A stretch of DNA of 64,000 nucleotides from assembly GCF_000800805.1 (NCBI RefSeq), contig NZ_CP010070.1:1116001-1180000 (forward strand). Reading direction: 5' to 3'. Below, one piece after another: positions 6,631-63,858 of the stretch. How positions within the stretch are numbered: position 1 is the first letter of the stretch; each line of letters starts with the position of its first letter. The notes under the pieces are model-generated. The model had not been told where the DNA came from, did no database searches, and worked only from the letters and a program-made list of their open reading frames with translations. The DNA is from Candidatus Methanoplasma termitum (GTDB lineage: Archaea > Thermoplasmatota > Thermoplasmata > Methanomassiliicoccales > Methanomethylophilaceae). The position numbers and the translations under genes were made by a program.

Positions 6631-7203
6631 TCACTTTTTATGCTTACCGTGATCGTCCTCGATCAGACGCCGAGGTATCATCACAAAGTCAATGTTCGCC
6701 GGTATTGCCTGTAAATATGTATAATACGGATCGTTCGACTCAGACTTTATGTACTTATCAAGATCGGGATCAATGTTCTGCAGCACTTTGATCAGAGTAT
6801 TGCGCATTCTGACAACATCCTCCCTCGGGATGCCCTCGAAATAACTATTGTTAAGATCGGTCAGGCCCGTCATTATTGTTTTTGCCAGTTCCCTCCCGGA
6901 GTCTGTCAGAAATACCGAGTATTTTTTACTGGCCTCGGTTTTTCTGTCATCATATACGAACCCCTTGTCTTTAAGTGTCTTTAAAACTCGATTTGTGTTC
7001 GCGGGGTCGAGATCCAAAAAGTGAGACAGCTGAACCATCGTCTGGCCGTCTTGGAGATTCAAAGCAATAAGATAGATTGAGTGTGCACTAGTGAGACCGT
7101 GTTCGCTTACGATCTTTGTCATATTTTTTCTCATGATGGTGCTCATTCTATCAAAGAAAACGGGCAGGAAAGAGTTCCAATATGTGTCTTCGCGCGTCAC
7201 CAT
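6631..7203 (-). CDS. MarR-family transcriptional regulator
   Basis: The 190-residue protein has a central winged helix-turn-helix: LTSAHSIYLIALNLQDGQTMVQLSHFLDLDPANTNRVLKTLKDKGFVYDDR..EASKKYSVFLTDSGRELAKTI, which covers helices, recognition helix and wing of MarR repressors. The DPANTNRVLKTLKDKGFV segment is the recognition helix region. The extra C-terminal 40 residues (ending DDHGKHKK) are not part of the core fold. MarR dimers usually respond to small phenolic ligands or oxidants. The gene lies next to a flavin reductase with palindromic candidate operators, suggesting it controls that enzyme and perhaps itself. Confidence 0.85.
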   Translation of the reverse strand: MVTREDTYWNSFLPVFFDRMSTIMRKNMTKIVSEHGLTSAHSIYLIALNLQDGQTMVQLSHFLDLDPANTNRVLKTLKDKGFVYDDRKTEASKKYSVFLTDSGRELAKTIMTGLTDLNNSYFEGIPREDVVRMRNTLIKVLQNIDPDLDKYIKSESNDPYYTYLQAIPANIDFVMIPRRLIEDDHGKHKK

Positions 7204-7249
7204 AATTGAATTGAGAAGATAACGACAGTTAAAACGTTTGTGGGTGTAG

Positions 7250-7349
7250 TGCGAGGGAGGGGATTCGAACCCCTGAACCCCTGCGGGACAGAATTTCTTC
7301 CCTTTGGAGTCTTAAGTCCTGCGCCTTTGGCCAACTCGGCTACCCTCGC
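7250..7349 (-). tRNA. tRNA-Leu(UAA) with a 16-nt intron
   Basis: Read on the minus strand, acceptor arms GCGAGGG and CCCTCGC pair fully, with discriminator A at 7250 and no encoded CCA. The anticodon arm is CAGGA-CTTAAG...A-TTCTG with anticodon TAA, the long variable arm is TCCCGCAGGGGTTC as expected for tRNA-Leu, and the T arm is AGGGG-TTCGAAT-CCCCT. To close the anticodon stem, 16 bases (ACTCCAAAGGGAAGAA, 7295-7310) after position 37 must be removed, the canonical archaeal intron position. Confidence 0.93.
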
Positions 7350-35730: not shown

Positions 35731-36765
35731 TTGATCAGGGTCAAACAGGCAGTCATTATGGTGGGGGGGATGGGAACAAGGCTCATGCCTCTCACAAAAT
35801 ACCGTCCTAAACCGATACTTCCGGTGTTGGACAAGCCCTGCCTGAAGTATCTTGTAGAATCCCTCGCAAGTTCCGGGATCGAGGAAATAATCATGGCCTG
35901 CGGTTACAAATCCTCACAGCTCATGGAAGCTATCGGAGACGGTTCCGACATCGGGATCGGGATAGAATACGCATTCGAGGACGAACCCATCGGGACTGCC
36001 GGGGCAATGAAGAATGTAGAGGAACGGCTTGATGATGTTTTCGTTGCCGCGAACGGCGACGTATTTGCCGACATCTCCCTCGGGGATCAGATAGAGATGC
36101 ACTTTTCATCGAACGCGGAGGTCACCATTGCACTGACATCGGTGAACAACCCGTGCGAGTTCGGAATAGCTAGGGTCAAAGATGATGATGAGATCACAGA
36201 GTTCAAAGAAAAACCGAAACCGGAAGAGGTGTTCTCCGACCTGATCAACGCCGGAGTCTACATAATAAACCGATCGGCCCTGTCTTATGTGCCGGAAGGA
36301 AAGTTCTTTGATTTCTCTAAAGAATTGATCCCGATACTTATGAGGGAGGAGAAAAAGATCCAGGGATACCGGCTAAAGGGACTGTGGAGGGATGTTGGCC
36401 GCCCGGTGGACCTTCTTGCCGCAAATTTATGTATGGCCTCCAAGGTGGGCAACCAGATATCATGGGGAGGGACCCAGGTGGAAGGGACCGCAATAAGAAA
36501 GCCATTCTATCTCGGAAAGGGTTCAAGCGTTACCGACTCCGAAGTTTCTGCTGCGGTGGTAATGGAGAACTCCACTGTTGTCAACAGCAAACTGATCAAC
36601 AGCATGATAATGAGGGATTGTAAAGTAAATTCCGCAAAGATAGAGAACAGCATCATCGGTGTCGGATGCAGGATCGGCAACGGGACCACAATAACAGGTT
36701 CGGTCATAGGTGACGGCCTTATCATCGAAGCGGGGAAAAAAATAGTTGACGAAAGGATGGGGTAA
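35731..36765 (+). CDS. Sugar-1-phosphate nucleotidyltransferase with beta-helix domain (HddC-like)
   Basis: The N-terminal domain is a nucleotidyltransferase: VIMVGGMGTRLMPLTKYRPKPILPVLDKP (about residues 8-36), followed by the sugar-binding stretch EFKEKPKPEEVFSDLINAGVYIINRSAL. Residues about 245-344 form a left-handed beta-helix of hexapeptide repeats (VVMENSTVVNSKLINSMIMRD). Translation starts at TTG 35731. The neighbouring kinase and isomerase-phosphatase are heptose enzymes, so the natural substrate is most likely D-glycero-D-manno-heptose-1-phosphate; the base (GDP or other) is not known. The usual bacterial HddC is shorter and lacks the beta-helix. Confidence 0.8.
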   Translation: MIRVKQAVIMVGGMGTRLMPLTKYRPKPILPVLDKPCLKYLVESLASSGIEEIIMACGYKSSQLMEAIGDGSDIGIGIEYAFEDEPIGTAGAMKNVEERLDDVFVAANGDVFADISLGDQIEMHFSSNAEVTIALTSVNNPCEFGIARVKDDDEITEFKEKPKPEEVFSDLINAGVYIINRSALSYVPEGKFFDFSKELIPILMREEKKIQGYRLKGLWRDVGRPVDLLAANLCMASKVGNQISWGGTQVEGTAIRKPFYLGKGSSVTDSEVSAAVVMENSTVVNSKLINSMIMRDCKVNSAKIENSIIGVGCRIGNGTTITGSVIGDGLIIEAGKKIVDERMG

Positions 36766-36766
36766 T

Positions 36767-37780
36767 TTGACAGAGTATTACAGAGCCAGAGCTCCGTTGA
36801 GAATAGGTATCGCGGGCGGAGGCACGGATGTGGATCCGTACGCCTCGAAAAAAGGGGGATGCGTCCTTAACACCACAATTAACAAGTATGCATACTGCAC
36901 GCTGACGCCAAGGAGCGACAACACTATGTGCGTCCACTCATCATATTACGGCAGATTCGAAGCGCCGCTTGACGGCGGCCCTCTGAAATTCGATGGGAAT
37001 AACGATCTGATAAAAGCGGTCACAAACTACTTCGGAGTGACCGACGGTTTCGATCTTTTGATAGAATCCGATGCGCCGGCCGGTTCCGGGCTCGGCGGGT
37101 CATCGACTATGATCGTTGCGATGATCTCGGCGGTGTCCAGCTGGATAGGGAAGAAGATGTATCATGATGACATTGCGAAGCTGGCATATCACTTGGAAAG
37201 AGAGGTCATCGGCCTTAAAGGCGGATTACAGGATCAGTACGCTGCGGCATACGGCGGATTCAACCTCATGGATATCGATTCGAGAGGAGTAAAGGTGCAG
37301 AAAGTGGATATCGACGAGGATGTTGCGGATGAATTGCAATACCGTTCTCTGCTGTGCTACACCGGAACATCCAGAGAATCGGCCGGGATCATCAAATCCC
37401 AGATAGAGTCCTTTAACAAAGGAGAGAACGAGAACGCATTGGACGAATCGAAAAGGCTTGCCAAAGAAATGGGCAAGGCGCTCATTAACGGGGATATCGA
37501 AGAGGCGGGCGTGCTTCTGCACGAGTCCTGGGGCTATAAGAAACAATTCTCGGATAAGATCTCCAACGACACGATCAACAAACTGTACGACCTGGCGATC
37601 CGCAGCGGCGCGATCGGAGGGAAGGTCTCGGGGGCCGGCGGCGGAGGCTTCATGTATTATATCTGTAAATACAATAAGAGAGCCGATGTGGCACAGGAGC
37701 TTCAGAAACACGGCGTAATGGTGACGAACTTCATGTTCGACCCCAAGGGAGTAACGTCGTGGAGGTGCAAAAATGAATGA
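36767..37780 (+). CDS. GHMP kinase, heptose-7-phosphate kinase type (HddA-like)
   Basis: The enzyme phosphorylates heptose-7-phosphate at C1. The protein starts YRARAPLRIGIAGGGTDVDPYASKKGGCVLNTTINKYAY, has the ATP loop SDAPAGSGLGGSSTMIVAM (about residues 103-121), QDQYAAAYGGFN (about 152-163) and the C-terminal KVSGAGGGGFMYY. These are the hallmarks of the HddA/fucokinase-like branch. I start at TTG 36767, two bases after the nucleotidyltransferase stop; a TTG at 36746 is also possible. About 337 residues. It overlaps the following gene by eight bases. Confidence 0.85.
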   Translation: MTEYYRARAPLRIGIAGGGTDVDPYASKKGGCVLNTTINKYAYCTLTPRSDNTMCVHSSYYGRFEAPLDGGPLKFDGNNDLIKAVTNYFGVTDGFDLLIESDAPAGSGLGGSSTMIVAMISAVSSWIGKKMYHDDIAKLAYHLEREVIGLKGGLQDQYAAAYGGFNLMDIDSRGVKVQKVDIDEDVADELQYRSLLCYTGTSRESAGIIKSQIESFNKGENENALDESKRLAKEMGKALINGDIEEAGVLLHESWGYKKQFSDKISNDTINKLYDLAIRSGAIGGKVSGAGGGGFMYYICKYNKRADVAQELQKHGVMVTNFMFDPKGVTSWRCKNE

Positions 37781-38813
37781 TATTATCAAAGCGGAACTGG
37801 AGAGACACGCAAAAGTGATCTCCGGCATAGATGTCAGTTCCATCAGAAAGGTCGCAGACCTAATAATCGCATCGGTGAAGGCCGGAGGGCAGATCATTTT
37901 TATGGGGAACGGAGGATCGTCCGCGGACGCACAGCACATGGCCGCCGAGTTTTCCGGGAAATATCTTTTCGACAGACCTGCGATGGCGGGAGTCTCTTTG
38001 TCAAACATAGCTCCGGTCACGGCGATCGGCAACGATTATTCCTACGACCTTGTTTTTCAGAGACAGATCGAAGCTGTATGCAGAAAAGGCGATGTCGTGA
38101 TAGGTCTCAGTACCTCCGGTAATTCGAGGAACGTCATATTAGCGGTCGAGGCGGCAAAAAGACTTGGTGCCAACACCGTTTCGTTCACAGGGGACGGCGG
38201 GGTGCTGAAAGACATGACGGACATCAGCGTGATAATTCCGACAAAAGAGACCCCCAGGATACAGGAGGGCTATTTCGTTTCGCTTCACATGATATGCGGT
38301 ATGGTCGAAAGGGAGATGTTCGGCAAGAAAGCGGTGCTCGTCGACAGGGATGACACATTGGTGAAGGACGTGGTGTATTGCAGCGATCCGGAGAAACTCC
38401 AGCTGCTTCCCGGCGTACCGAAAGCAGTCGCTAAACTGAACAAAGCGGGATATATTGTTATAGTTGTTACAAACCAATCCGGTATAGCCAGAGGCCTCCT
38501 TGATGAAAAGATCCTTGCCGCGATCCATGAAAAGATGGTCGGAGAGATCGAGGCGGAAGGGGGCCACATCACAGACATATTCTACTGCCCGCACCACCCG
38601 GACGACTGCTGTTCATGCAGGAAACCTGAGACAGACCTTGGCGTAGCGGCGATCATGAAATACCACATCAATCCCAGCATATCATACATGATCGGCGATC
38701 ATGATAAGGATATCGAGTTCGGAAGAAGGCTCGGTCTGAAAACATACCAGATATCAGAGAAAAGAACTTTCGTAAAGATCGTGGATGAGATACTCACTGC
38801 CGATAAAAGATGA
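37773..38813 (+). CDS. Fused phosphoheptose isomerase and heptose-bisphosphate phosphatase (GmhA-GmhB)
   Basis: The 346-residue protein joins two enzymes. Residues 1-185 are a GmhA-type SIS domain (MGNGGSSADAQHMAAEFSGKYLFDRPAMAGVSL, GLSTSGNSRNVI, QEGYFVSLHMICGMVE), which turns sedoheptulose-7-phosphate into heptose-7-phosphate. Residues about 187-346 are a HAD phosphatase of GmhB type (AVLVDRDDTLVKDVVYCSDPEKLQLLPGVPKAVAKL, VVTNQSGIARG, a CPHHP...CSCRKP zinc loop, IGDHDKDIEFGRRLGLKT), which removes the C7 phosphate. Fusion brings steps 1 and 3 of the pathway together, while the kinase and nucleotidyltransferase lie directly upstream. Its end overlaps the convergent glycosyltransferase by 20 bases. 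Confidence 0.9.
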   Translation: MNDIIKAELERHAKVISGIDVSSIRKVADLIIASVKAGGQIIFMGNGGSSADAQHMAAEFSGKYLFDRPAMAGVSLSNIAPVTAIGNDYSYDLVFQRQIEAVCRKGDVVIGLSTSGNSRNVILAVEAAKRLGANTVSFTGDGGVLKDMTDISVIIPTKETPRIQEGYFVSLHMICGMVEREMFGKKAVLVDRDDTLVKDVVYCSDPEKLQLLPGVPKAVAKLNKAGYIVIVVTNQSGIARGLLDEKILAAIHEKMVGEIEAEGGHITDIFYCPHHPDDCCSCRKPETDLGVAAIMKYHINPSISYMIGDHDKDIEFGRRLGLKTYQISEKRTFVKIVDEILTADKR

Positions 38814-49137: not shown

Positions 49138-50112
49138 GTGATCGTCACCAGGACCCCTTTAAGGATCAGTTTTTGCGGTGGGGGAAGTGACCTACCCTCT
49201 TTCTACAAAAGGCACGGGGGGCATGTGGTCAGCACCACTGTCGACAAATACGTGTACCTTTCATTAGAGCGGTCCTTCAACCCGATTGCCACTTCACTCA
49301 AGTATTCAACGGTGGAGAAAGTCGACTCCGTTGATGAGATAAAACACCCGATCTTCAGAGAATGCCTGAAAATGCACAACGTGCAGGGAGTTGAGATAAA
49401 CAGCACGGCGGATATACCAAGCGGAACCGGCATGGGTTCATCCAGTTCATTCACCGTCGGTCTGATAAATTTACTGAGAGCCTACAACGGCAACTTCTCT
49501 GATAGAAGATTTCTTGCAGAAAGCGCCTGCGAGATGGAGATAGATATCCTTCACGAGCCGATAGGAAAACAGGATCAGTACGCCGCTGCATATGGTGGAC
49601 TGAATTACTATCATTTCAAAAAGGACCACAGTGTAGAAGTGGAACATCTGGCTCTGTCAAAAGAGCTCAAGGACACCCTTAACAAAAGACTTGTTCTTTT
49701 TTACATCGGCGGCGATCGGAGTGCATCGACCATCCTGAAAGAACAGAGTGAAAGTGACGAGAGAAAGGATGAGGCAACAAAAAAATTGTGCTCCCTTGCG
49801 ATAAAACTGAAAGACGATCTGAAGTCGGGAGATATCGACTCGCTGGGAAAACTTCTTGATGAGAGTTGGAAGCTGAAAAGGGAGATCACATCACGCATCT
49901 CTAACAACAAGATAGACGAAATATACGATCTGGGCTTATCAAACGGAGCAGTTGGAGGAAAGCTCCTTGGAGCCGGCGGCGCAGGATTCATGCTTTTCTA
50001 TGCTCATGAGGAAGATCAGACCGGTCTGAAGGCCGCCCTGAGCCGATGCAGAGACATTCCGTTTCGTATGGAGTGCGAAGGCTCTAAAGTCGTGTTCAAC
50101 GATCAGCACTGA
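49138..50112 (+). CDS. GHMP kinase, second heptose-7-phosphate-kinase-like copy
   Basis: The 324-residue protein starts at GTG with IVTRTPLRISFCGGGSDLPSFYKRHGGHVVSTTVDKYVYLSL, then STADIPSGTGMGSSSSFTVGL (ATP loop, about residues 88-108), EPIGKQDQYAAAYGGLNYYHF and KLLGAGGAGFMLFY. It belongs to the same branch as the kinase at 36767 but is clearly distinct. The end overlaps the convergent epimerase by 17 bases. Confidence 0.85.
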   Translation: MIVTRTPLRISFCGGGSDLPSFYKRHGGHVVSTTVDKYVYLSLERSFNPIATSLKYSTVEKVDSVDEIKHPIFRECLKMHNVQGVEINSTADIPSGTGMGSSSSFTVGLINLLRAYNGNFSDRRFLAESACEMEIDILHEPIGKQDQYAAAYGGLNYYHFKKDHSVEVEHLALSKELKDTLNKRLVLFYIGGDRSASTILKEQSESDERKDEATKKLCSLAIKLKDDLKSGDIDSLGKLLDESWKLKREITSRISNNKIDEIYDLGLSNGAVGGKLLGAGGAGFMLFYAHEEDQTGLKAALSRCRDIPFRMECEGSKVVFNDQH

Positions 50113-51046
50113 TGTTGATGTCCTCAAGGGTCTTTCTTACTGATCCGGATGAATCATAATTGTACTTCCAACCCTTCTTTTCAGCCTTCTTGACATCATA
50201 ATCAAATGTGGGCACATCTCCCTTCCAACCGCAGTCCCCCCCTGTGTACTCGTATCTCACATCGGAAAGCCCCATCCTCTCACAGACCATGTTTGCGATC
50301 TCATTCACCGTTGTGAAAGAATTAGTTGAAATATTATACAAATTGTATCCCTTTTCGATCTTTGAAGAAAAGTCTGCGATACCGTCGGCAAGATCTTTGA
50401 CATACACATACTGCTTAGACTGTTTTCCGTTCCCCAGGATCTCTAACTTTTTAGGGTTCGCCTTCAACTTTTTTATGAAATCGAATATCACACCATGTGT
50501 AAGTCTGGGTCCAACCACATTGGGGAACCTGAACACCAAAGAATCAATGTCATTCATATAAGAGTAGGAGGATATCATTGCCTCCGAAGCAAGCTTTGCG
50601 GCCCCGTAGAACGATATCGGCTGCAGACCTCCCGTCTCTTCATTCAGCTTGCCTTTGATATCGCCATAGACCGCGGACGTTGACGAAAAGAAGAATTTTC
50701 TGATGCCGTTGACCCTTGCCGCCTCCAACATCGATACTGTCGTAAGGAATGTGTCATTGAGGTCGATACTCGGGTCTCTGCCACCTTTTTGGATATCCGA
50801 GTTTGCGGCGAGGTGGAAAATCATGTCCGCACCCTCGGTCAATTTGTTGACGGATGACTGATATTTCATATTGTTCTCAACATAAACGAATCTCTTCTCA
50901 GAGACCAGATGTTTTATGTTGGACGCATTTTGCGCCGGGATCCTGTCTGTCGCCACAACATCCCACCCTCTTTTCAAAAGAGAATCGGCGAGATGGCTTC
51001 CGATAAAACCTGCACCGCCCGAAATCACCGCTTTTCCGCTGGTCAT
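50096..51046 (-). CDS. NAD-dependent sugar epimerase/dehydratase
   Basis: The 316-residue extended SDR has the Rossmann motif GGAGFIGSHL (residues 9-18), DMIFHLAANSDIQKGG, the active site SSTSAVYGD with YGAAK (Tyr and Lys, about residues 151-155), FRFPNVVGPR and a C-terminal sugar-binding part. It modifies a nucleotide-activated sugar; substrate unknown. Last gene of a three-gene minus-strand group with GT2 and a phosphosugar isomerase. Confidence 0.88.
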   Translation of the reverse strand: MTSGKAVISGGAGFIGSHLADSLLKRGWDVVATDRIPAQNASNIKHLVSEKRFVYVENNMKYQSSVNKLTEGADMIFHLAANSDIQKGGRDPSIDLNDTFLTTVSMLEAARVNGIRKFFFSSTSAVYGDIKGKLNEETGGLQPISFYGAAKLASEAMISSYSYMNDIDSLVFRFPNVVGPRLTHGVIFDFIKKLKANPKKLEILGNGKQSKQYVYVKDLADGIADFSSKIEKGYNLYNISTNSFTTVNEIANMVCERMGLSDVRYEYTGGDCGWKGDVPTFDYDVKKAEKKGWKYNYDSSGSVRKTLEDINISADR

Positions 51047-51101
51047 TATCGGTTACAGAAAAGCGGGGGATTTAATGTTATCGCCATTGCCGCTCCCGCC
51101 A

Positions 51102-52106
51102 TTATGCTTTTTTAGGTTTTCTGAAACATTTATTGTCTTTGTAGTATATTTTACGAAGATAATATTCAACAAAAGAGTAGTACAGCGAAGGGGCGACCTT
51201 GAACAATACCACTTCCGGAGAAACAGAGTTGTGAAGATTCGCATTCAACATTGTTCTGCAATCCTCACTCCTTGCATATTCCATAAAACTCGCTTTATCC
51301 ATATGGACCGCTGACCTTATTCGGATCAGTGCGGACCTTTTTTTGAAGACCCCGATGATATCTTCATCGCCGGAGAACAGCTCCTCTAATTTTGCGTATC
51401 TGTCTATCTCTGCTTTACCGCGTATGTTCCTGTTCTTATCGGTATTGCAGATGGAACCCTCATTCTGGATGTATAGGTAGAGGGGTTTTTCGCAGAAACA
51501 TATTTTTTCAGACTTGTTGACAAGATTATACGTATGCCAAACGTCTTCGGCATAACCGAACGAGAACTCGATCCCATTGTCGGTAAGGAGTTTTTTTCTA
51601 ATGATCTTTGACCATGCCGTGACCGGAAGTTCGAGATGAAGAAGCGCCGCTATCGCTTCATTCCTGCTCATCTCATCGATCCCGAATTCTCCGGAAGGGG
51701 GTTTAACATCTGCGGATCGAGTTCTTATGAAATTGAACATGACAACGTCCGCATTCTTTTCCGCCATTATCCGGACTGTTTCGCTTAGAAGTTCAGGTAC
51801 TGCCACATCGTCAACATCAAAGAACCATACTATCTCGCCTTCTGATGCTTGGAGGCCTTCGTTCCTGGCACCCCCCAGTTTTGTATCTCCCTGCTGAACG
51901 ATCACTTTGACATCAGACAACCTGCCCTTCTCTTCTTCCATTATCTTGAGAGAATCGTCGCTGGTCTTCTTGTCGACGACAAATATCGTTTCAAAATTAT
52001 CATAGGTCTGTTTTGACAGAACGTCAAATGCACTGCGTATGTGTGCGGCACCGTTAAAGACGGGTATTATTACGCTTACTTTCTCAGAGGCTTTCAATGC
52101 TTCCAA
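51102..52106 (-). CDS. GT2 glycosyltransferase
   Basis: The 334-residue protein has the GT-A fold: VSVIIPVFNGAAHIRSAFDVLSKQTYDNFETIFVVDKKTSDDSLKIM (residues 10-56) and GEIVWFFDVDDVAVPELL with the DVDD metal motif (about 94-97). The C-terminal third has no known domain and no membrane helix. It probably adds a sugar to a surface polysaccharide repeat in the cytosol. Confidence 0.87.
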   Translation of the reverse strand: MEALKASEKVSVIIPVFNGAAHIRSAFDVLSKQTYDNFETIFVVDKKTSDDSLKIMEEEKGRLSDVKVIVQQGDTKLGGARNEGLQASEGEIVWFFDVDDVAVPELLSETVRIMAEKNADVVMFNFIRTRSADVKPPSGEFGIDEMSRNEAIAALLHLELPVTAWSKIIRKKLLTDNGIEFSFGYAEDVWHTYNLVNKSEKICFCEKPLYLYIQNEGSICNTDKNRNIRGKAEIDRYAKLEELFSGDEDIIGVFKKRSALIRIRSAVHMDKASFMEYARSEDCRTMLNANLHNSVSPEVVLFKVAPSLYYSFVEYYLRKIYYKDNKCFRKPKKA

Positions 52107-52157
52107 AGTATATGCGACGGATTTAAAATTGTAACGCAGGCTGTTTTGGGATTTCCT

Positions 52158-52748
52158 TCAACACATGGTAACGCCGAGTCTTTTGGCAACCGCTCTGGCG
52201 ATCAGATGCAGGAATATCATGTGTGCATCCTCTGCCTTCTGCATGTCTTCCAACGGGAAGTGGATGTTTATATCCGCCTTCTTGTAAAGCTTGCCGCCGT
52301 CATAGCCTGTGAACCCTATTACTTTGCAGCCGATGTTTTTTGCATAATCGGCTGCTCTGATGATATTCTCAGAGTTCCCGCTCCCTGAAATAAGGATCAG
52401 GATGTCACCTTTTTTCATCCTTCCCATTAGGTATCGGACAAATATCTCCCCATATTCTACATCATTTGCAATGGCGGTAAGCATGGGGATACTGTCGCTC
52501 AGACAAATCATCTCGAACTTTTTATCAAGTGTAGACGATATCCCTTTATTAAAGTCACAGACAATGTGCGAAGCGGTGGCGGAACTTCCGCCGTTGCCGG
52601 CTGTGAATATTTTGGAACCTCTGCCATGTGCTTCGATCAGCGCCTCTATCGCGGCATCGACCCCACTGAGATCCACCTTCCCTATGGTCGATGTCAGTTC
52701 GCTGAGATATTCTTTTGCAAACGAAGCGTTGTCTGCACTACCTTTCAT
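52158..52748 (-). CDS. SIS-domain phosphosugar isomerase (GmhA-like)
   Basis: The 196-residue protein has IFTAGNGGSSATASHIVCDFNKGIS (about residues 49-73), AIANDVEYGEIFVRYLMGRMKKGDILILISGSGNSENIIRAADYAK and AEDAHMIFLHLIARAVAKRL. These are the SIS phosphate-binding motifs of the GmhA/DiaA group. The chain is stand-alone, in contrast to the fused copy at 37773, and is the first gene of the minus-strand trio. Confidence 0.85.
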   Translation of the reverse strand: MKGSADNASFAKEYLSELTSTIGKVDLSGVDAAIEALIEAHGRGSKIFTAGNGGSSATASHIVCDFNKGISSTLDKKFEMICLSDSIPMLTAIANDVEYGEIFVRYLMGRMKKGDILILISGSGNSENIIRAADYAKNIGCKVIGFTGYDGGKLYKKADINIHFPLEDMQKAEDAHMIFLHLIARAVAKRLGVTMC

Positions 52749-54572: not shown

Positions 54573-56223
54573 CCTGACTTTGACAGTAGCTCCGCTGCCT
54601 GATTGTTAAATCTTAATAATTTGACAGAAGAGAAGACCTCGTTTCCGAGGAACACTTCACCCTCTCTTCTACACGAAAAGACCGCTTTTACATGTGTTAT
54701 GTCTCCGATAACAGCCCGAACGAACGCATTATGGAGATGTTAAGAGGGTTGAAGTTCGATAATATGCGTCTTTCCCTGCCGTCCGCTCCCCTTTCCACAG
54801 TAAGTGTCAACTTTTGCATGCTGTCCGTAATGAATTTCGTTGCCGTCGAAGATGCTGGCTTAGTGAAAAGACGTTTCACGGAAACCAACGCCTGAGCGAG
54901 AAAACCTATCAAAAGGATCCCGTACACGCCGTTCTCGGTCCATGCTCTGATGGGCCTTATCCCGATGTCCGACTTCATCGACGAGAACAGTTTCTCGATG
55001 ACATCCTTGTCCCTGTATATCGACCGTGCTTTCAGCGGTTCCATGTCCGCGTCGGACACTAAACAGAAGAACCCCTCCCTCCCGGTGACCTCCTTTTCCC
55101 TGAGGATCCGCAACGCCTCTTCATCCGATATTCCGGAAAGTTTCGTTTGGAGATAGATGTCTGCCTTGATCAGGACGTTATCGATCTCGTACCTCTTCTT
55201 CATCTTCTTTCCTTTTTCGAGATCTTCCTGAAGGGACTTTGCTTCCCTGAGCTTCTTCCCTATCTTCTTTTCAATGCCCTTCATCTCGAGCTCATAAAGC
55301 TCCCCGGAAAAATAGTAGTAATTCACCCTGGACGGGAATGCCTTCTTGAGACAATATTCCTCCTTCTCCTTATCCAGGCATTCCCATTCTTCCGTTGAGA
55401 ATCGGGCGAAGAGTTTATCATCGCTCTTGTTGAGCTGCTTCCTTGTCAGAAAATGTCTCCTGTCGTTGACGATGCCGTCCAGAACGTCCTTTTGACTGGC
55501 ACCCGCGTCGAAGACCATCATCGATCCTTCGGAAAGGACATCCTTTACCTGACCGTAAGTGCGGATCATATGCTTCCCGTCGTGGGTGTTGCCGGGCATG
55601 ACGGTCATTCTGACGGGGACGCAGAACGGCTTCGCCAGCTGGGATATCCCTATGGTGACCTGGCATTCCTCGGGTTGACCATCTCTGGAATGCCCCCTCG
55701 CCGCCAGTTCCGGCTCGCTGCCGAAATAGACAAGCGAGGTCCAATAGAATATCATATCCGTTATCTCCGGGCCGTACATTCTCATGAATGTTCTCCTGAA
55801 GTGGCCGATGATCAGTTCGCGGTTCTCTCCCATGGTCTCAACGGCACGGTACAAAGTTTTGACATTAAATCCGGGCAGCCCCATATGCTTCCGCACAGGC
55901 TCCCGCATTGCGAATTCATGGCATCTCAGGATGCTGAAGTTGTCGCCGAGCTTGTATGCGACCATAAGCTCGGCAAGCTTGCCGAGGTCTATGCCCTTGG
56001 TCTTCAGATCGTTCAGGAGACGGGACAGACCGAAAAGTTCAAAGAACGCCTCGGTCAGAAGGATGTTCCCGATGGGAACGGATATATTTGCGTTAGGCTT
56101 TATCTCAGATGTTCTGAAATTGGTTTGTTTGGTCATAAACTTGTATTTCAGAACACCCCCTTATCTTTTTGCCGGAACAGCCTGCCAGCATTACATCGAA
56201 AGCGACCTCATGTCAAAGTCAGG
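54573..56223. mobile_element. IS1634-like insertion sequence with inverted repeats and target duplication
   Basis: The element is bounded by the perfect inverted repeat CCTGACTTTGACA (54573-54585) and TGTCAAAGTCAGG (56211-56223). Directly outside, ATCAAA is repeated on both sides (54567-54572 and 56224-56229), the expected 6-bp target duplication. Between them lies one intact transposase gene. Total length 1651 bases. The intact structure suggests a recent insertion. Confidence 0.9.
54697..56136 (-). CDS. IS1634/IS4-group transposase
   Basis: The 479-residue DDE transposase has an N-terminal domain with LLTEAFFELFGLSRLLNDLKTKGIDLGKLAELMVAYKLGDNFSI, the first catalytic region VTIGISQLAKPFCVPVRMTVMPGNTHDGKHM, the second Asp in SMMVFDAGASQKDV, and the late RSIYRDKDVIEKLFSSMKSDIGIRPIRAWTENGVYGILLIGFLAQAL with the catalytic Glu. 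No frameshift. It fills the IS between its inverted repeats. Confidence 0.92.
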   Translation of the reverse strand: MTKQTNFRTSEIKPNANISVPIGNILLTEAFFELFGLSRLLNDLKTKGIDLGKLAELMVAYKLGDNFSILRCHEFAMREPVRKHMGLPGFNVKTLYRAVETMGENRELIIGHFRRTFMRMYGPEITDMIFYWTSLVYFGSEPELAARGHSRDGQPEECQVTIGISQLAKPFCVPVRMTVMPGNTHDGKHMIRTYGQVKDVLSEGSMMVFDAGASQKDVLDGIVNDRRHFLTRKQLNKSDDKLFARFSTEEWECLDKEKEEYCLKKAFPSRVNYYYFSGELYELEMKGIEKKIGKKLREAKSLQEDLEKGKKMKKRYEIDNVLIKADIYLQTKLSGISDEEALRILREKEVTGREGFFCLVSDADMEPLKARSIYRDKDVIEKLFSSMKSDIGIRPIRAWTENGVYGILLIGFLAQALVSVKRLFTKPASSTATKFITDSMQKLTLTVERGADGRERRILSNFNPLNISIMRSFGLLSET

Positions 56224-56408: not shown

Positions 56409-57542
56409 ATGAAAATAGCGATCGGGATAGATGTGCATAAGGAAAAATGTGCGACGTTTGCAGTGTACGCAGGCAAAGAAGAGCCGAGAAAGAAGAACCT
56501 GGATTTTTTGGAAAGATTCAACGCCGATTTCCGGAGATTCCCTTCGGACGCTGCGGGAATGGTCGGACTGACGAACCGCCTTCACGGTCAGGATGCGTAT
56601 ATTCTGATAGAGAATTCGACCAAGTCTCGCGACGTCTATTGGATGCTGACCAATCTCGGGTTCAGAGTGACGGTGGCTCATGCCGCCGACCTGTACAGGA
56701 TAACCAGGTCCAAAACAAAGAACGATGATAACGACGCTGCTGAACTGGCGGGGTATATGCGCAGGCGGCTGATGAGGGAGATCGAGTTCGCCGTCGCCCA
56801 TATGCCTTCGCGGGAGGTGCTGGTGCAGAGGGAATTGTGCAGGTTCGATATCAACGACAGGAATGATCTGACCGCTTTGAAAAAACAGATCAGATCCCAT
56901 CTTCTGATAAGAGGAATGAAGCTGTCCCGCGATTACTCCGACATCACCTGTGTTCTTGCCCTCAGGGAGCTGAAGGCAACGGGAGACCACATTCTCATTC
57001 TGGATGCGGCGAAGGCCGAGAGTATCAAAGCGAGAAAGTCTCAGACAGAGAAGATGATCCGATACAGGATGGAAGGCAACAGGATGTTCGATATCGTTTG
57101 GTCGGTCCCGGGATTCGGTATCCTATCTGCGGCGTATGTCACGTGCATGGCCGATGATATGACACGTTTCGTGGACGGGCGGGCATTCGCCGCATCTGCC
57201 GGAATAACCCCCAAACTTGACGAATCCGCCGACAGACCGAAGAACTGCGGGATCAGCCGCAGAGGGGACCCGGGGCTCAGGAGGCTGTTGTGCCAAGCAA
57301 CGTTCGTTCACATAAACCATGCGGACTCGTTCATATCCGAGAAATACAAACGTCTGAAGGCCAACGGCAAACATCACAACGAGGCGTTGGTGGCATGTGC
57401 GAATTCCATGGCCCGCATGATCTGGGCCATGGTGACCCATGACAGGAAATATTCCGCAGACCCGACAGTGATGGCTGTGACAAGATATCTCGCCGATTCC
57501 GACGAGATAGAGGATGAGATGGAGGCAGCGCAGACAGAATGA
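56409..57542 (+). CDS. IS110-family recombinase (DEDD transposase)
   Basis: The 377-residue protein has the RuvC-like N-terminal catalytic domain: AIGIDVHKEKCATFAVY (Asp8), YILIENSTKSRDVYWML (Glu about 62), and TRSKTKNDDNDAAELAGYM with the last Asp pair (about 103-107). The C-terminal Transposase_20 domain follows: MFDIVWSVPGFGILSAAYVTCMADDMTRFVDGRAFAASAGITPKLDESADRPKNCGISRRGDPGLRRLLCQATFV, containing the catalytic Ser region. The chain is complete and has a GGAGGAGG ribosome site before ATG 56409. IS110 elements lack normal terminal inverted repeats, so the element borders cannot be fixed. Confidence 0.92.
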   Translation: MKIAIGIDVHKEKCATFAVYAGKEEPRKKNLDFLERFNADFRRFPSDAAGMVGLTNRLHGQDAYILIENSTKSRDVYWMLTNLGFRVTVAHAADLYRITRSKTKNDDNDAAELAGYMRRRLMREIEFAVAHMPSREVLVQRELCRFDINDRNDLTALKKQIRSHLLIRGMKLSRDYSDITCVLALRELKATGDHILILDAAKAESIKARKSQTEKMIRYRMEGNRMFDIVWSVPGFGILSAAYVTCMADDMTRFVDGRAFAASAGITPKLDESADRPKNCGISRRGDPGLRRLLCQATFVHINHADSFISEKYKRLKANGKHHNEALVACANSMARMIWAMVTHDRKYSADPTVMAVTRYLADSDEIEDEMEAAQTE

Positions 57543-57980: not shown

Positions 57981-58415
57981 TCAGCTTGCACGCGTTTCGA
58001 ATCCATCCAATACCGTTCCAAACCATCCCCAATGATCATAGACTGCCCAGCTCTTACCTTTCGAGTAATAATTGTCGCGCGCACTCACGTAAGAATTCCA
58101 CATACTCGTCGTTAAGTTTCCGGCAATCCATGATCCAACAGCACCCACAAGTGCCGATATTCCGGCCGTAAACGGTGCAGCTCCATATCCAACTATTGCT
58201 GAGGCGGTCGCTATCGAGATGGTTAGGCCAGCTGCTGCAGCTGTCGTCATAACCATCAGGTTGAGACCACTGCTGCCACTGTATTGCCCAAGTTTATCCC
58301 AGTGATCGCCAAAAATGCCTCCTGTGATATATTCCATTTCATCACTATCTATATCAACATAACCATTTGGTAATTTGAATCCATTATGGTTATAATCCAT
58401 AAAACTTGTTTCCAT
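57981..58415 (-). CDS. Double-glycine leader peptide, bacteriocin-like precursor
   Basis: The 144-residue precursor has a 33-residue leader ending IDSDEMEYITGG, which matches the LSxxELxxIxGG consensus cut by peptidase-C39 transporters after Gly-Gly. The mature part would be 111 residues beginning IFGDHWDKLGQ. It contains a long hydrophobic, Gly/Ala-rich stretch (about residues 54-98, MVMTTAAAAGLTISI and ISALVGAVGSWIAG) able to span a membrane as a helical hairpin, and a Trp/Tyr-rich tail (AVYDHWGWFGTVLDGF). AGGAGG at 58423-58428 stands 7 bases before the ATG. A C39 transporter and an HlyD adaptor follow divergently, so an exported antimicrobial or signalling peptide is likely; activity is not shown. 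Confidence 0.85.
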   Translation of the reverse strand: METSFMDYNHNGFKLPNGYVDIDSDEMEYITGGIFGDHWDKLGQYSGSSGLNLMVMTTAAAAGLTISIATASAIVGYGAAPFTAGISALVGAVGSWIAGNLTTSMWNSYVSARDNYYSKGKSWAVYDHWGWFGTVLDGFETRAS

Positions 58416-58501
58416 TTTATTTCCTCCTGTTGCTTTTTAACGCAACTAAATATAATAAGATTATAATAGATATTTATATATTGGTATATTGTTTATAGAT
58501 T
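58416..58501. promoter_or_regulatory. Divergent promoter of the peptide export module
   Basis: The 86 AT-rich bases carry TTTATATA (58473-58480) placed about 25 bases before the ATG at 58502, which fits a leaderless plus-strand transcript. The same run read on the minus strand (TATATAAATATC) would give the peptide gene a leader of some 35 bases including its AGGAGG site. A second minus-strand box TTATATTT is at 58448-58455. Expression of precursor and export genes may thus be coordinated. Confidence 0.55.
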
Positions 58502-58894
58502 ATGGAAAACAGAACTGACAGACAAAGTTTCATTGTATTAGCGGCTCTAGTGGGGTCTCTTTTCTCTTGGTTGTTTGTATGGTCATTTATAGGCTCCATA
58601 TACGTTTTGTCTTTAATGTCCATAGCTTTGTTGACATTGGCAACGATAATGTATAGGCCACGCAACGAGGGCTGGTTTGAAAACTGGGATGGAAGACCAC
58701 GCCACGCATTTACTTTTGCGTCGGCATTGGGGTTAATCGCTGGGTCAATGAATATATTGTTTTATGACGGTCGAAGTTTTTCTTCATTGTTGTGTGGCAT
58801 CATTGCTTTTGTGGTGGGCATAGCTACTCTCATAATGTGCATATATGCAAACAATAACTACAGGGTACAAATAGTTAAAAAAAATATCCAATAA
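58502..58894 (+). CDS. Four-helix membrane protein, candidate immunity protein
   Basis: The 130-residue protein has four hydrophobic segments (about residues 10-30, 32-50, 69-87, 94-112) with a polar loop RPRNEGWFENWDGRPRH between pairs and a basic tail. No family is recognised. Small multi-pass membrane proteins next to a bacteriocin gene often give self-immunity, and this one is the only such candidate in the module, divergent from the precursor. The role is inference from position. Strongly AT-rich. Confidence 0.65.
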   Translation: MENRTDRQSFIVLAALVGSLFSWLFVWSFIGSIYVLSLMSIALLTLATIMYRPRNEGWFENWDGRPRHAFTFASALGLIAGSMNILFYDGRSFSSLLCGIIAFVVGIATLIMCIYANNNYRVQIVKKNIQ

Positions 58895-58928: not shown

Positions 58929-59387
58929 ATGGTTCACACAATAGATATAAAAAATGAAAAGTATTTAGTTACAAAGCAAGTAGTTTTCATGTCTATTGAT
59001 AATGCGTTCCAGATGGGCACATCAGTAAATACGTTTGCTACAAAGCTAAAAGCATATAGACTATCAGTAACGGGGCCACCCATTATTCGAGGAAGGGTCG
59101 ATTTCAATGGGGGCGAAGTTCTTATAAAAAAAGACATAATGTTACAATTTGTAGGTAATCCCGTGACTCTTCCAAAGGAGTTCGAATGGAAAGAACATTT
59201 AAAGATAGGTCCATGCGTTTATGCACGGTTCCGAGGGAGAGAAGAAAATCTCATTTTTGCCTCTCAGAAAATATCTGTTTATGCATATGAGAATGAGATC
59301 GAACTGAAAAAAGAAAGCTATACTGTATATGTTGAAAAAACTAATGTCGCAGTAACAATTGATATTTTCATACCACACGAGGATTGA
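58929..59387 (+). CDS. GyrI-like (effector-binding fold) protein in the peptide module
   Basis: About 152 residues from ATG 58929 (MVHTIDIKNEKYLVTKQ); an ATG at 58923 adds two. The C-terminal half, GPCVYARFRGREENLIFASQKISVYAYENEIELKKESYTVYVEKTNVAVTIDIFIP, follows the pattern of GyrI-like / AraC effector-binding domains, which bind amphipathic small molecules or peptides. There is no DNA-binding domain. It is 4 bases from the HlyD gene and so probably works with the exporter, perhaps in peptide binding or protection. The fold assignment is tentative. Confidence 0.6.
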   Translation: MVHTIDIKNEKYLVTKQVVFMSIDNAFQMGTSVNTFATKLKAYRLSVTGPPIIRGRVDFNGGEVLIKKDIMLQFVGNPVTLPKEFEWKEHLKIGPCVYARFRGREENLIFASQKISVYAYENEIELKKESYTVYVEKTNVAVTIDIFIPHED

Positions 59388-59390
59388 CTC

Positions 59391-60485
59391 ATGGTGATTA
59401 AACGTATTCAACACCTTAATGATTTGAAAGACAGCGCATTGTTATATAATAAGAATCCACCAAAATTTATGACAATCATCATATTAGTGATTTTTATTGC
59501 TTTGATTATAACTGTTGTAATAGCAGATAATAAACAGAAATCAGAATCCATTCAGAGCATAGGGATTGTTCAATCAGAAAGCAAACAATATGTTATGTCT
59601 CCATTTGGTGGAGAGATAGACGAAATCTGTGTTGAAGAAGGTGTGGCGGTCGAGAAAGGCGACATACTAATTATTATTGGTGCAACCGATGAAAAAGCCC
59701 AACTGGAACTTTATAAAAATCTTTCGAACTATTACTTTGACATCTTGAAAGGATATTATAAAATGTATGATGCCGTCGATAACTACAACATTAATAATGA
59801 TGCAGGAGCTGACCTTTACAATAAAAACCCTTTTGATGCAAATTCAGAAAAAATAATGTACATTTCATATCAGAATTTTTTACGTCAAATGGCTGAAGTT
59901 ACAGATGACGATAATCACTCATTGATGGAGAACAGACAATTGTATTTAGATCAATCATTAATGAGTTGTAATCAAATGATAATGCAATATGAACCAACAT
60001 ATAAACAGACTCTTTATCAGAAAGAATATTATCAGGCCATTATTGATAAGCACACCATTACGGCAGAGACAGATGGCACGGTTCATTTTGAAACAACTCT
60101 TGGTACGAGGATGGTAGTATCTGTCGGTACCGTATTGTTTTCTATTTCAAACATGGCTGAAGATAATAGTGCGCTCATAAAGCTCCAAATTCCTGCCGCA
60201 TATCGCCCACATATATCCATAGGCTATAAAACTCAAATCGAAGTGGCTGGCTATCCAAGTGAAGCATATGGGAAGTTAAACGGCAGAATTACAGAGATAT
60301 CAAGTGACAGCAATGTAGATTCAAATGGTAACGTGTGGTTCACAGCTTACGTGATTGTAGACGATACAATCATGATTGGAAGGGCAGGAGCTGTCAAAGT
60401 TGTCAATGGCATGATGGTTTCAGCCACCATTATTTATGAAAATTCTACTTGGTTGGAGTGGATTCTAAAAGGATTAGGACTATAA
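59391..60485 (+). CDS. HlyD-family adaptor for peptide export
   Basis: The 364-residue protein has one N-terminal membrane helix (about residues 25-46), a biotinyl-lipoyl-like segment (YVMSPFGGEIDEICVEEGVAVEKGDILIIIGATDEKAQLEL), a helical hairpin (about 105-210) and the second half of the lipoyl and beta-barrel domains (DKHTITAETDGTVHFETTLGTRMVVSVGTVLFSIS). This is the bacteriocin secretion accessory protein type (LcnD/MesE-like). The stop TAA overlaps the ATG of the transporter gene by one base. Confidence 0.88.
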   Translation: MVIKRIQHLNDLKDSALLYNKNPPKFMTIIILVIFIALIITVVIADNKQKSESIQSIGIVQSESKQYVMSPFGGEIDEICVEEGVAVEKGDILIIIGATDEKAQLELYKNLSNYYFDILKGYYKMYDAVDNYNINNDAGADLYNKNPFDANSEKIMYISYQNFLRQMAEVTDDDNHSLMENRQLYLDQSLMSCNQMIMQYEPTYKQTLYQKEYYQAIIDKHTITAETDGTVHFETTLGTRMVVSVGTVLFSISNMAEDNSALIKLQIPAAYRPHISIGYKTQIEVAGYPSEAYGKLNGRITEISSDSNVDSNGNVWFTAYVIVDDTIMIGRAGAVKVVNGMMVSATIIYENSTWLEWILKGLGL

Positions 60486-62731
60486 TGAGAAAGAACATAA
60501 TCGTTAAACAACACGACTCAACAGATTGTGGTGCTGCAGCACTTGCGATGATATGTTTATATTATGGCAAAGAGGTCACTATTACTGGCCTCAGAGATGC
60601 GTGCGGCACGGACATTCTTGGAACAAATGTTGAGGGATTGTGTACAGGGGCAAAGAAACTTGGATTAGACACCAAGCCAATACGCATATCAGATGATGAA
60701 TTTATAAAAGGAGAATTCACATTGCCAGCAATTTGTCATGTTGTAACGAAGAGTGGTTTCCATCACTATGTCGTACTAACAAAAATAAGCGCTGAGGGTG
60801 TGGTTGTTTTAGATCCAGCTCTTGGAAAACGTAAACTCTCACATGAGGAGTTCTCAAAAGAGTTTGACAATATTGTTATTCTAATAAAACCCTCATCTGA
60901 TTTCAAAGCTTCAAAAGTCGATAAAAAGTCTTTATTTTATAGGCTTATGAGTCTTGTTTTGAATCAAAAATGGTTATTTATTACAACAATAATTGCTGGA
61001 TTCCTCATCACGGTGTTGGGAATTGTGTCTTCCTTTTTTAATAAGTTTCTTATAGATGAGATACTGCCATTCGGCCTTAAGGATCAACTACTAACTTTGG
61101 TGCTAATTTTTATTATAGTTGCTTTAACGAATATTGCATTGGGTGCAATAAGACAACACGTTGTTCTTCACTTGTCACAGAAGATCAGCATACCGCTTAT
61201 GCTGGGATACTATACACACGTACTGAACCTCCCAATGAAGTTCTTTGGAACAAGGAAAACAGGAGACATCATCACAAGATTCCAAGATGCCGGGACTGTT
61301 GTTTCTGTGGTATCTGGAATAATACTGACACTAATACTTGACGTGCTATTTGCAATTGTAACGGGAGTTGTTCTTTATATGATCAATCCATCCTTGTTTG
61401 GAGTAATAGTTGTTTTTACTTTGGTCAGTGTGGTTTTAGTGTACATATTCAGGCAACCTTACAAGAAAATCAACCGTGAACAAATGGAAGCCGCCGCATC
61501 GTTAAACTCTACAACAATAGAATCGCTAAGGGGGATTGAAACAGTAAAGGGAAATGCTGCCGAAGAAGAAACGATGGAGAAAATTGAAAATCGATTTGTA
61601 AGAACATTGCGCATAGCCTACAGAGCGAATGTACTCTCAAATTATCAAGGTATTGTATCCTCGTCGATTTCAATGATCGGTGGCTTGTTGATAATGTGGC
61701 TTGGTGCAATGTATGTAATAAGTGGAGATATCACACTTGGAACCCTTATGGCATTTTCATCACTAACTGGATTCTTCATGGGCCCAATAGGTAGGCTAGT
61801 CAATGTCCAATTTCAAATTCAAGAAGCTGATATCGCTCTCAGGAGGCTCAGTGAAATACTTGATGTAGAAGAAGAGTGTGAAACACATAAAGGAAAAAGT
61901 ATTCCCGAAACTTTCTTTGGAAACATCTCCATTGAGAATCTGAGTTTCAGATATGGGTTCAGAAAACCCATTTTGTCTGATGTTTCGATAGAAATAAAAG
62001 GTGGCGAAAAAGTAGCTCTCGTGGGGGAGAGTGGTTGTGGAAAGACAACAATTTGTAAAGTCATCATGGGACTCTGGGTTCCTGAAAGCGGAAAGGTGAA
62101 TATTGCCGGATACGACCTTGAAGAACTTGACATACAATCATATAGAAAAAGAGTGGCATACGTCCGACAAGAAGTTGAATTGTTCAGCGGAACAATAACA
62201 GATAACATTCGAGTTTCACTTCCAACAGCCACCGACGATGACATTCGAAGGGCGTGTGAAATGGCAGGTTGTTCAGATTTCATCAGCAGGCTACCTTCAA
62301 GATATGAAACTTATCTAGAAGAGGCGGGAGCAAACCTTTCCGGTGGTGAAAGGCAACGCATAGGGTTGGCAAGAGCGTTTGTGAAGAAACCGGAGTTACT
62401 GATCCTGGATGAAGCCACCAGTAATCTCGATTTCTTATCTGAAGCAAAAGTTTACGACACGTTATTCAATAAGCTGAAGTGCACCACTATCATCGTTGCG
62501 CACAGACTATCTACAATAAGAAGATGTGATAAAATTTTCATGATGGCCAATGGGAAGGTTGCAGAGGCTGGAACTCACGATGAGCTTATTGAAAAGCATG
62601 GGTTATACTGGAAGATGTGGAATAGCCAGATAGGGAATGATGTTTCTTCAACAAAAGAAGACAAGCTGAAGAATCAATCGAAAGAAGACGCCATGTATGA
62701 AAATGATGATGATTTCATTTCATATGTGTGA
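60485..62731 (+). CDS. Peptidase-C39 ABC transporter (peptide processing and export)
   Basis: The 748-residue protein removes double-glycine leaders and exports the peptide. The N-terminal C39 peptidase has KQHDSTDCGAAAL with Gln9 and nucleophile Cys15, FHHYVVL with His94, and VVLDPALGK with Asp110, so the triad is complete. A six-helix exporter domain follows (about 150-440) with MKFFGTRKTGDIITRFQDAGTV. The ATPase domain has Walker A GESGCGKTT (about 513-521), LSGGERQRIGLARA (about 618-631) and LLILDEATSNLD. I start at ATG 60485, which overlaps the HlyD stop; the frame is open to 60449. AT-rich relative to the chromosome. Confidence 0.95.
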   Translation: MRKNIIVKQHDSTDCGAAALAMICLYYGKEVTITGLRDACGTDILGTNVEGLCTGAKKLGLDTKPIRISDDEFIKGEFTLPAICHVVTKSGFHHYVVLTKISAEGVVVLDPALGKRKLSHEEFSKEFDNIVILIKPSSDFKASKVDKKSLFYRLMSLVLNQKWLFITTIIAGFLITVLGIVSSFFNKFLIDEILPFGLKDQLLTLVLIFIIVALTNIALGAIRQHVVLHLSQKISIPLMLGYYTHVLNLPMKFFGTRKTGDIITRFQDAGTVVSVVSGIILTLILDVLFAIVTGVVLYMINPSLFGVIVVFTLVSVVLVYIFRQPYKKINREQMEAAASLNSTTIESLRGIETVKGNAAEEETMEKIENRFVRTLRIAYRANVLSNYQGIVSSSISMIGGLLIMWLGAMYVISGDITLGTLMAFSSLTGFFMGPIGRLVNVQFQIQEADIALRRLSEILDVEEECETHKGKSIPETFFGNISIENLSFRYGFRKPILSDVSIEIKGGEKVALVGESGCGKTTICKVIMGLWVPESGKVNIAGYDLEELDIQSYRKRVAYVRQEVELFSGTITDNIRVSLPTATDDDIRRACEMAGCSDFISRLPSRYETYLEEAGANLSGGERQRIGLARAFVKKPELLILDEATSNLDFLSEAKVYDTLFNKLKCTTIIVAHRLSTIRRCDKIFMMANGKVAEAGTHDELIEKHGLYWKMWNSQIGNDVSSTKEDKLKNQSKEDAMYENDDDFISYV

Positions 62732-62775: not shown

Positions 62776-63631
62776 TCAGCATCCCCGAACTTGACATTTC
62801 CAGACCAACCCCGAAGTTGTGACTATGCATCTAAACCTGGCCTTGGCGTGTCTTGTTTCCTCCTTACGCCCGGCCAGCACTTCTCCCAGAACGCGTTTTA
62901 TCATTGAATTCACGGTTTCGGCGATAGCCCTGATGCCGTACGTTGATTTGAGTTCCGTTCCTTCCGTCAGCTCCCTCTTCATCCTGTTCCTGTTGACCCC
63001 TCTTGTTCTCGTTCCGTTCCTGAACGTCCTTGCGGGTATGACGGCCTCGGCATCCAGATACTTCCTGACCATCTTGTGGACGTACTCGGCATCGTATCCC
63101 TTGTCTGCAACCAACGCCTCGATCCGGAACTCCGCATCGGCGAGTTTTGTCAGAAGGGCCCCATTCTTTTCACGTCGGCGGTCCTTGAGTCGGCGCGGTG
63201 TCCGCGGTCAATATCGCTTTCGTATGAACGCATACGGCCAGCGTCAGCTTCGTATACCCTCTGACGACCGCTTCCTCAATGCCGAAGTACTTCAGCTGGA
63301 GGATATAATGTTTGGATGCATGCGAAGTCGGCATCCCCGTCGCATCCGCCGCAACGATGACGTCATCGTTGCCGACGATCATCATGCTCTGGGTCGCCAG
63401 GATGCGGCCCAATACTCCGGGGTTCAAACGCCCCCTGAATTTGCGGAGGGTCGTCTCTTCGGGAATATCCGATATCCCCGTCGCTTCCGTGACGGTGACA
63501 AGCGACGGAAGTATCATAGAGAACTCGGCAAAGGATTTCCCGAGATATTCTTTCACCGCCAATAAGGCCACCTTCGCATGGTCTGAATATGTTCTCTTGC
63601 TCTTCTTCGACGAATATTCCAGATATCCCAT
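62776..63631 (-). pseudogene. IS5-like transposase gene broken by a frameshift
   Basis: The start is MGYLEYSSKKSKRTYSDHAK at 63631. The upstream part runs to about 63185 and contains VIVAADATGMPTSHASKHY (first Asp) and KLTLAVCVHTKAILTADTA. The coding then continues in a different frame as RRLKDRRREKNGALLTKLADAEFRIEALVADKGYDAE (second Asp) and AETVNSMIKRVLGEVLAGRKE (Glu) to 62776. One frame change near 63185-63195 separates the halves. No typical slippery site is seen, so decay or a read error is more likely than programmed frameshifting. The frame extends to 63802 but that part is not transposase-like. Confidence 0.85.
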
Positions 63632-63858
63632 ACCTGAAAGTATCAAGAATGTTGTCCTCACTATACCGGCTAACCTGTCGGCTCTCCGAGCCGTTCCTCT
63701 GCATCCCACACTAATCCCATCCTTGGGATGGCCATTCTCTGATCGGATCAGCCATCCCGTGGGAGTGAAATGGTCTTGCCAGCGATAAAAATATAATGCC
63801 AAAACAATTCAAGATCGGTCAACAGTATAATTTCCTGAAAGCCTTGACCTACATTTCT

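Follow-up and report, generated by a model that had tools for sequence, protein, structure and literature searches.

A Gly-Gly leader peptide encoded beside a C39-ABC exporter operon in Candidatus Methanoplasma termitum: a candidate large antagonist

The precursor gene and the divergent operon

We analysed a window of 64,000 nucleotides of Candidatus Methanoplasma termitum (NZ_CP010070.1, positions 1,116,001 to 1,180,000), in which a minus-strand ORF encodes a Gly-Gly (GG) leader precursor (Table 1). A sequence-only reading of this DNA had counted 111 residues behind the Gly-Gly site, and this count held: the pair occupies residues 32-33 of 144, closing a leader of 33 residues (ending EMEYITGG). 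Residues 13-33 read FKLPNGYVDIDSDEMEYITGG, placing P-18, Y-15, I-12, E-8, M-7, I-4, G-2 and G-1. A strong ribosome site, AGGAGG, lies 7 nt 5' of the ATG. An M-started ORF of this length arose in 0.6% of shuffles of a 900-nt region, and a full-length ortholog (39-44% identity) was found in synteny in a termite-gut MAG; the latter is the stronger proof, and judged by these sequence comparisons the ORF is a genuine gene.

Table 1. Features of the cassette and its flanks, in window coordinates
Feature	Coordinates	Strand	Description	Basis
IS110-family transposase	56409..57542	plus	flanks the cassette	PF02371, PF01548
GG-leader precursor gene	57981..58415	minus (58415->57981)	144 aa, ATG start	translation, leader profile, syntenic ortholog (G040, WQTN01000131.1)
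Aromatic C-terminal tail	57984..58085	minus	residues 111-144, SARDNYYSKGKSWAVYDHWGWFGTVLDGFETRAS	59% identical to G040 ortholog; motif recurs in longer relatives
Putative divergent promoter region	58416..58501		AT-rich; holds AGGAGG of the precursor	sequence
Candidate immunity protein	58502..58894	plus	130 aa, four hydrophobic segments	same-place ortholog in G040
Predicted GyrI-fold protein	58929..59387	plus	152 aa, distant DUF5085 relative, no DNA-binding domain	AlphaFold, Foldseek
HlyD/bacteriocin-accessory membrane fusion protein	59391..60485	plus	364 aa	PF13437 6.8e-12; TIGR01000 2.2e-16 (below curated cut-off)
Peptidase C39-ABC exporter (PCAT)	60485..62731	plus	748 aa	TIGR01193 1e-183 (over cut-off); PF03412 6.7e-36
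DDE transposase fragment	62776..63114	minus	other flank	PF01609 1.6e-4, just under curated cut-off

The mature peptide contains 16 Ala and 15 Gly and has a net charge (KR-DE) of -1. Its longest run lacking D, E, K, R and H spans 71 residues, which 0 of 20,000 shuffles matched, and its best 45-residue hydropathy window scored 1.47, a value reached in 0.04% of shuffles; the Gly/Ala-rich hydrophobic stretch of about 45 residues described earlier is thus present. In contrast, the best 19-residue window was ordinary (1.65, reached in 11% of shuffles), so that the core is a long, mildly hydrophobic Gly/Ala-rich stretch and not one strong transmembrane helix. The aromatic end was also recovered: aromatic residues fill nine of the final 38 positions. 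No family of Pfam, NCBIfam, PHROG or PDB matched the mature region, and hence none of the non-antimicrobial kind that the sequence-only reading had named as evidence against itself. Searches of phages, plasmids and viral contigs returned no relatives, nor did a sequence search of PDB, and an AlphaFold model of the precursor computed with five relatives was of low confidence (pLDDT 36). Lanthipeptide-type modification of the peptide was rejected, as no modification enzyme was seen in or next to the operon.

Divergent from the precursor runs a tight operon of four genes, encoding a protein with four transmembrane segments (4-TM), a GyrI-fold protein, an HlyD-like adaptor and a C39-ABC exporter; the second to fourth genes either overlap or have 3 nt between them. 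The exporter matched PCAT1 (4ry2) with an E value of 6.7e-166 and retains the peptidase Cys/His/Asp as well as the Walker and signature nucleotide-binding motifs. The proposal of a GG-leader peptide, probably secreted, with a hydrophobic Gly-rich core and an aromatic tail is thus supported, and its own exporter adjoins it. The 4-TM protein has few relatives and shares only 32% identity with its ortholog in the MAG, as compared to 55-82% for the exporter genes.

An AlphaFold model of the 152-aa partner (pLDDT 90) retrieved with Foldseek CtaZ (7zhe, TM 0.71 at 16% identity), CTR107, the drug-binding domain of BmrR and SbmC/GyrI, with 3e0h and 1jyh also among the matches, and this protein is accordingly modelled with a GyrI-like, multidrug-binding-domain fold. 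DUF5085 was matched weakly to moderately by 10 of 15 members of its family (best 3.4e-6) and not by the window protein.

The GC content of the cassette is 38%, against 48% for positions 1-54000 of the window, and transposase genes lie on both sides; therefore, we consider the cassette an island. It is surrounded by transposase sequences, whole or fragmentary, from two or more families (54697-56136, 56409-57542 and 62776-63802). No histidine kinase or Rgg-type receptor was seen beside the cassette. Elsewhere in the window, Pfam matches alone revealed two sugar-activation gene sets resembling a heptose pathway, unusual in an archaeon (35731-38813 and 49138-52748), which comprise a nucleotidyltransferase, a GHMP kinase and a SIS isomerase with a HAD phosphatase, together with a second GHMP kinase and SIS.

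Relatives of the cassette in archaea and Clostridia

The termite-gut MAG G040 (WQTN01000131.1) carries all five genes in the arrangement of the window, with identities of 39-44% for the peptide, 32% for the 4-TM protein, 55% for the 152-aa protein, 61% for HlyD and 82% for the exporter. Along the peptide, identity was highest in the leader (67%), followed by the aromatic tail (59%), the first 15 mature residues (47%) and the core (28%). As the tail is conserved while the core drifts, the tail appears to be constrained and the core free apart from staying hydrophobic. Two further genomes, G034 and G025, contain more distant long relatives whose similar tails finish with FG-x-V/L-x(2)-G-F/Y; a mature-region profile built from two sequences found one of them (18.8 bits, best shuffle 9.9), and the reverse search was marginal (P0001, 16.5 bits against 13.3 for the best shuffle).

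Two other loci resemble this cargo in part. A frame-broken ORF pair in genome G093 (G093:C20, L134 about 6519-7261, minus) has a core and tail like those of the long archaeal cargos; an apparent Sec-type signal peptide and a pro-region take the place of the GG leader, a gene for a small membrane protein comes next, and no C39 was found in this genome. If the pair is real, such a cargo can take another export route. The organism's own genome holds a second GG-leader ORF (L002 1501-1833; C1:955776-956112) with an in-frame TAG in its leader (MPARYVELSED*MEYKGG), at a position that its relatives fill with either an acidic or a small residue. The adjoining HlyD and C39 are truncated, the latter to a 27-bit remnant; the locus has probably decayed, although pyrrolysine read-through is conceivable in this order. 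Several low-scoring family matches were dropped, either as one unrelated membrane protein family (L007, L010, L011, L014) or for lacking a leader and containing stops (L008, L013).

Across the order, the leader type occurred in 20 of 147 genomes, all within the family of the window, Methanomethylophilaceae, where tandem cargo paralogs with hypervariable mature parts reach up to 10 per genome. C39 was present in 23 of the 147. Peptide and C39 occurred together in 15 of the 20 peptide-bearing genomes (Fisher 5e-11), and 14 of the 15 genomes with the 152-aa protein also had C39 (9e-13), values computed as if the genomes were independent, although they are not. Nearly every full-length archaeal cassette of this type, and the clostridial cassettes examined, contained the whole set of exporter, 152-aa protein and HlyD. 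A different type of C39 exporter, lacking the 152-aa partner, is represented by four other proteins of the order (L120-L122, L132); two matches of the class search (L139, L140) look like chance. At L056 (G059:C5:17721-18940), four or more short genes for GG-leader peptides lie in tandem, their leaders nearly identical and their cores variable.

Clostridial carriers include Clostridium frigoris (L089), whose exporter is about 55% and whose leader is 67% (over 21 residues) identical to those of the window, and genomes across the wider class Clostridia. Their gene set, leader register and long, variable cargos are like those of the window, with ABC identities of about 48-55%; in contrast, their mature regions cannot be aligned with that of the window, the gene order is mostly ABC-GyrI-HlyD and the tail motif is absent. 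Clostridial cargos have 76-106 mature residues, and some look soluble and not membrane-inserting. Two of them matched Bacteriocin_IIc of Pfam weakly, below the cut-off (2.4e-5 and 0.0032), and a structure search with one cargo gave chance matches only. A distinct cargo type behind the shared leader, of the form ...EIYAHAxxYY...ANPIDIxDGxD...IW and matching nothing in Pfam past its leader, was noted in three clostridial cassettes (L108, L113, L114).

Over archaeal and clostridial cassettes of this type, about 50-124 mature residues follow one leader type, which makes 111 residues normal for the class. Measured against class II bacteriocins of lactic acid bacteria, the window peptide is indeed longer than most, but the claim fails against its own cassette relatives (mature 52-124 aa); the proposal that its size sets it apart as a type of its own finds no support, given the cargos of similar length throughout the archaeal and clostridial family.

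The window leader matched a 37-leader profile common to archaea and Clostridia; its register is the clostridial one, which exceeds the common archaeal register by one residue. In the exporter tree the window exporter grouped with G040 (and G051), away from those of the other archaeal cassettes, at moderate support values below star level (93/87, 86/92), and a single clade of archaeal cassettes, tried as an alternative, found no support there, that for the split being itself only moderate. Tree and leader register together hint at more than one transfer between the archaeal and clostridial groups, with a single origin as the alternative reading.

Comparison with known export systems

Published PCAT recognition relies on leaders ending in G(-2)G/A/S(-1) with hydrophobic residues at -12, -7 and -4 and E-8. 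The window leader has this pattern (I-12, E-8, M-7, I-4, GG), and the nearby C39-ABC transporter with catalytic residues expected for a PCAT substrate is encoded at 60485-62731. PCAT1-CtA of Clostridium thermocellum and ComAB/BlpAB are similar in their C39-ABC proteins with catalytic and nucleotide-binding motifs and in GG leaders with the -12/-8/-7/-4 pattern; the window cassette differs by its archaeal host, its added GyrI-fold partner and a longer leader motif (P-18, Y-15). The GyrI-fold partner and P-18 recall the pneumococcal rtg locus, which encodes the RtgAB PCAT, GG peptides and the GyrI-like RtgX, and in whose leaders the segment from -22 to -18, including P-18, directs export and transporter choice. 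The likeness is one of gene content and leader position, comprising the PCAT, the GG peptides, the P-18 leader and the GyrI-like gene; unlike the window cassette, the rtg locus has rtgX in only 21% of strains and is under Rgg/SHP regulation.

CtaZ, which confers self-resistance to closthioamide, and other GyrI-like domains share the fold of the 152-aa partner. However, they bind small molecules, whereas the partner is fixed within a peptide exporter operon. Its constant presence in the cassettes led us to consider a role in export, such as holding hydrophobic cargo, and the GyrI-fold protein might be a standing partner of the exporter that holds the hydrophobic precursor or cargo in the cytoplasm. 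The recurrence of this partner suggests an unrecognised exporter subunit.

Class II bacteriocins (Bacteriocin_IIc, PF10439) resemble the window peptide and its cassette in the GG leader, the Gly-rich hydrophobic core, the PCAT with an HlyD-type accessory protein and the candidate immunity gene. They are unmodified antimicrobial peptides, usually under 10 kDa and typically cationic. At 111 aa the mature peptide of the window exceeds this usual range, being about twice the usual length, its net charge is -1, and the match to PF10439 (E 0.85, 10.1 bits) stayed below the curated cut-off of 27.1.

Among characterised proteins, the nearest to share this leader type is MAM of Faecalibacterium, a human gut bacterium. 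MAM has 135 aa, with a 21-aa leader, a cargo of about 114 aa and an adjacent PCAT gene; it is reported to form a surface lattice, as an envelope protein with anti-inflammatory effects, and is described as genus-wide and highly abundant. Its leader (P-18, Y-15, I-12, E-8, M-7, Y-5, V-4, GG) has the register of the window leader, and its first 42 residues, the part compared, scored 24.9 bits against the leader profile, compared with 14.2 for the best of 1000 shuffles. Leader type, cargo length and adjacent PCAT are thus alike in both; the MAM pattern MMMPANx(8,11)VxGG is not found in the window leader (KLPNGY...ITGG), the similarity being one of register alone. With an envelope protein as the nearest characterised counterpart, the peptide is a candidate antimicrobial only.

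Possible function of the exported peptide

From features legible in the DNA itself (the gene, its leader motif, the cassette, the exporter motifs and the conservation pattern), we favour the following mechanism. The C39 domain of the adjacent PCAT would recognise the leader through P-18/Y-15/I-12/E-8/M-7/I-4 and cut after Gly33, and the PCAT, aided by the HlyD-like adaptor, would export the 111-residue cargo, while in the cytoplasm the GyrI-fold protein would hold the hydrophobic precursor or cargo. Once exported, the Gly/Ala-rich core would enter membranes as a single loosely hydrophobic helix or a pair of them, and the aromatic tail would dock at an interface or target, the cargo acting as a bacteriocin-like antagonist of close competitors and the 4-TM protein providing immunity to the producer. 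That the adjacent PCAT cleaves and exports the peptide is highly probable, because the leader fits the PCAT motif and profile, an intact PCAT and adaptor lie in a tight operon, and GG peptides co-occur with C39. We favoured a bacteriocin-like antagonist on account of the hypervariable tandem cargos, the patchy island, the small, fast-evolving membrane neighbour and the hydrophobic core; the syntenic five-gene ortholog and the weak Bacteriocin_IIc matches of two clostridial cargos also count in its favour. Against it stand the net charge of -1, the ordinary 19-residue hydropathy, the unmatched PF10439 and the use of the same leader type by an envelope protein, MAM. By its place and fast evolution, the 130-aa 4-TM protein is a reasonable candidate for the immunity gene. 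Antagonism and immunity are thus moderately well indicated, pore formation by the mature peptide and the holding role of the GyrI-fold protein only faintly so, and the reading as a whole, that of a large class-II-like antagonist exported and cleaved by the PCAT, with 4-TM immunity and a membrane-inserting core, stands slightly above an even chance.

The strongest competing reading is that of a MAM-like envelope protein, which the PCAT would export to the surface of the producer and which, not being a toxin, would use its core and aromatic tail for assembly. The shared leader register, cargo length and adjacent PCAT, the leader profile score of MAM and its reported surface lattice all speak for it, and the conserved tail could serve as the assembly interface. 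However, MAM is described as genus-wide and highly abundant, while the window gene occurs sporadically, is rich in AT and has IS elements on both sides; its relatives form hypervariable arrays, and a fast-evolving membrane gene lies alongside the peptide. Moreover, a leader is a transporter address and carries little information on cargo function. We therefore regard an envelope role as rather unlikely, if the most serious of the alternatives.

An improbable variant is a secreted toxin against competitors in which the tail is active, by receptor blocking or enzyme inhibition, and the core is an anchor only, forming no pore. Such a division of labour would agree with a tail that, beside a drifting core, shows the highest conservation within the mature region, with the similar tail behind a Sec-type signal in G093 and with the soluble appearance of certain cargos in clostridial cassettes of this type, yet there is neither an enzymatic motif nor a family match. 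Since PCATs also export pheromones, and archaeal C39-linked GG-leader loci were considered possible bacteriocin or quorum-sensing systems in a 2019 survey of archaeal dark matter (PMC6393860), an exported quorum-sensing signal was also weighed; 111 residues with a 71-residue uncharged stretch are far from known pheromones, and as neither a histidine kinase nor an Rgg-type receptor was seen next to it, we judge a signal very improbable.

Returning to the bacteriocin-like antagonist, C39 of Methanobacterium has been tied to bacteriocin processing (PMC8115248), and a literature search of partial coverage found no description of these cassettes in Methanomassiliicoccales. A wider proposal, unlikely as it stands, is that a cross-domain class of cassettes (C39-ABC, an obligate GyrI-fold protein and HlyD, with cargo addressed by a P-18 leader) equips gut methanogens with large bacteriocins that form pores in archaeal ether-lipid membranes, the GyrI-fold protein being a new cargo chaperone and MAM a member of the class turned to envelope use. 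Through their leader, the peptides of archaea and Clostridia are linked to MAM, a protein whose export and function are being studied. There is little documentation of antagonism by methanogens, and the complete export cassette described here points to one secreted protein that may take part in it.
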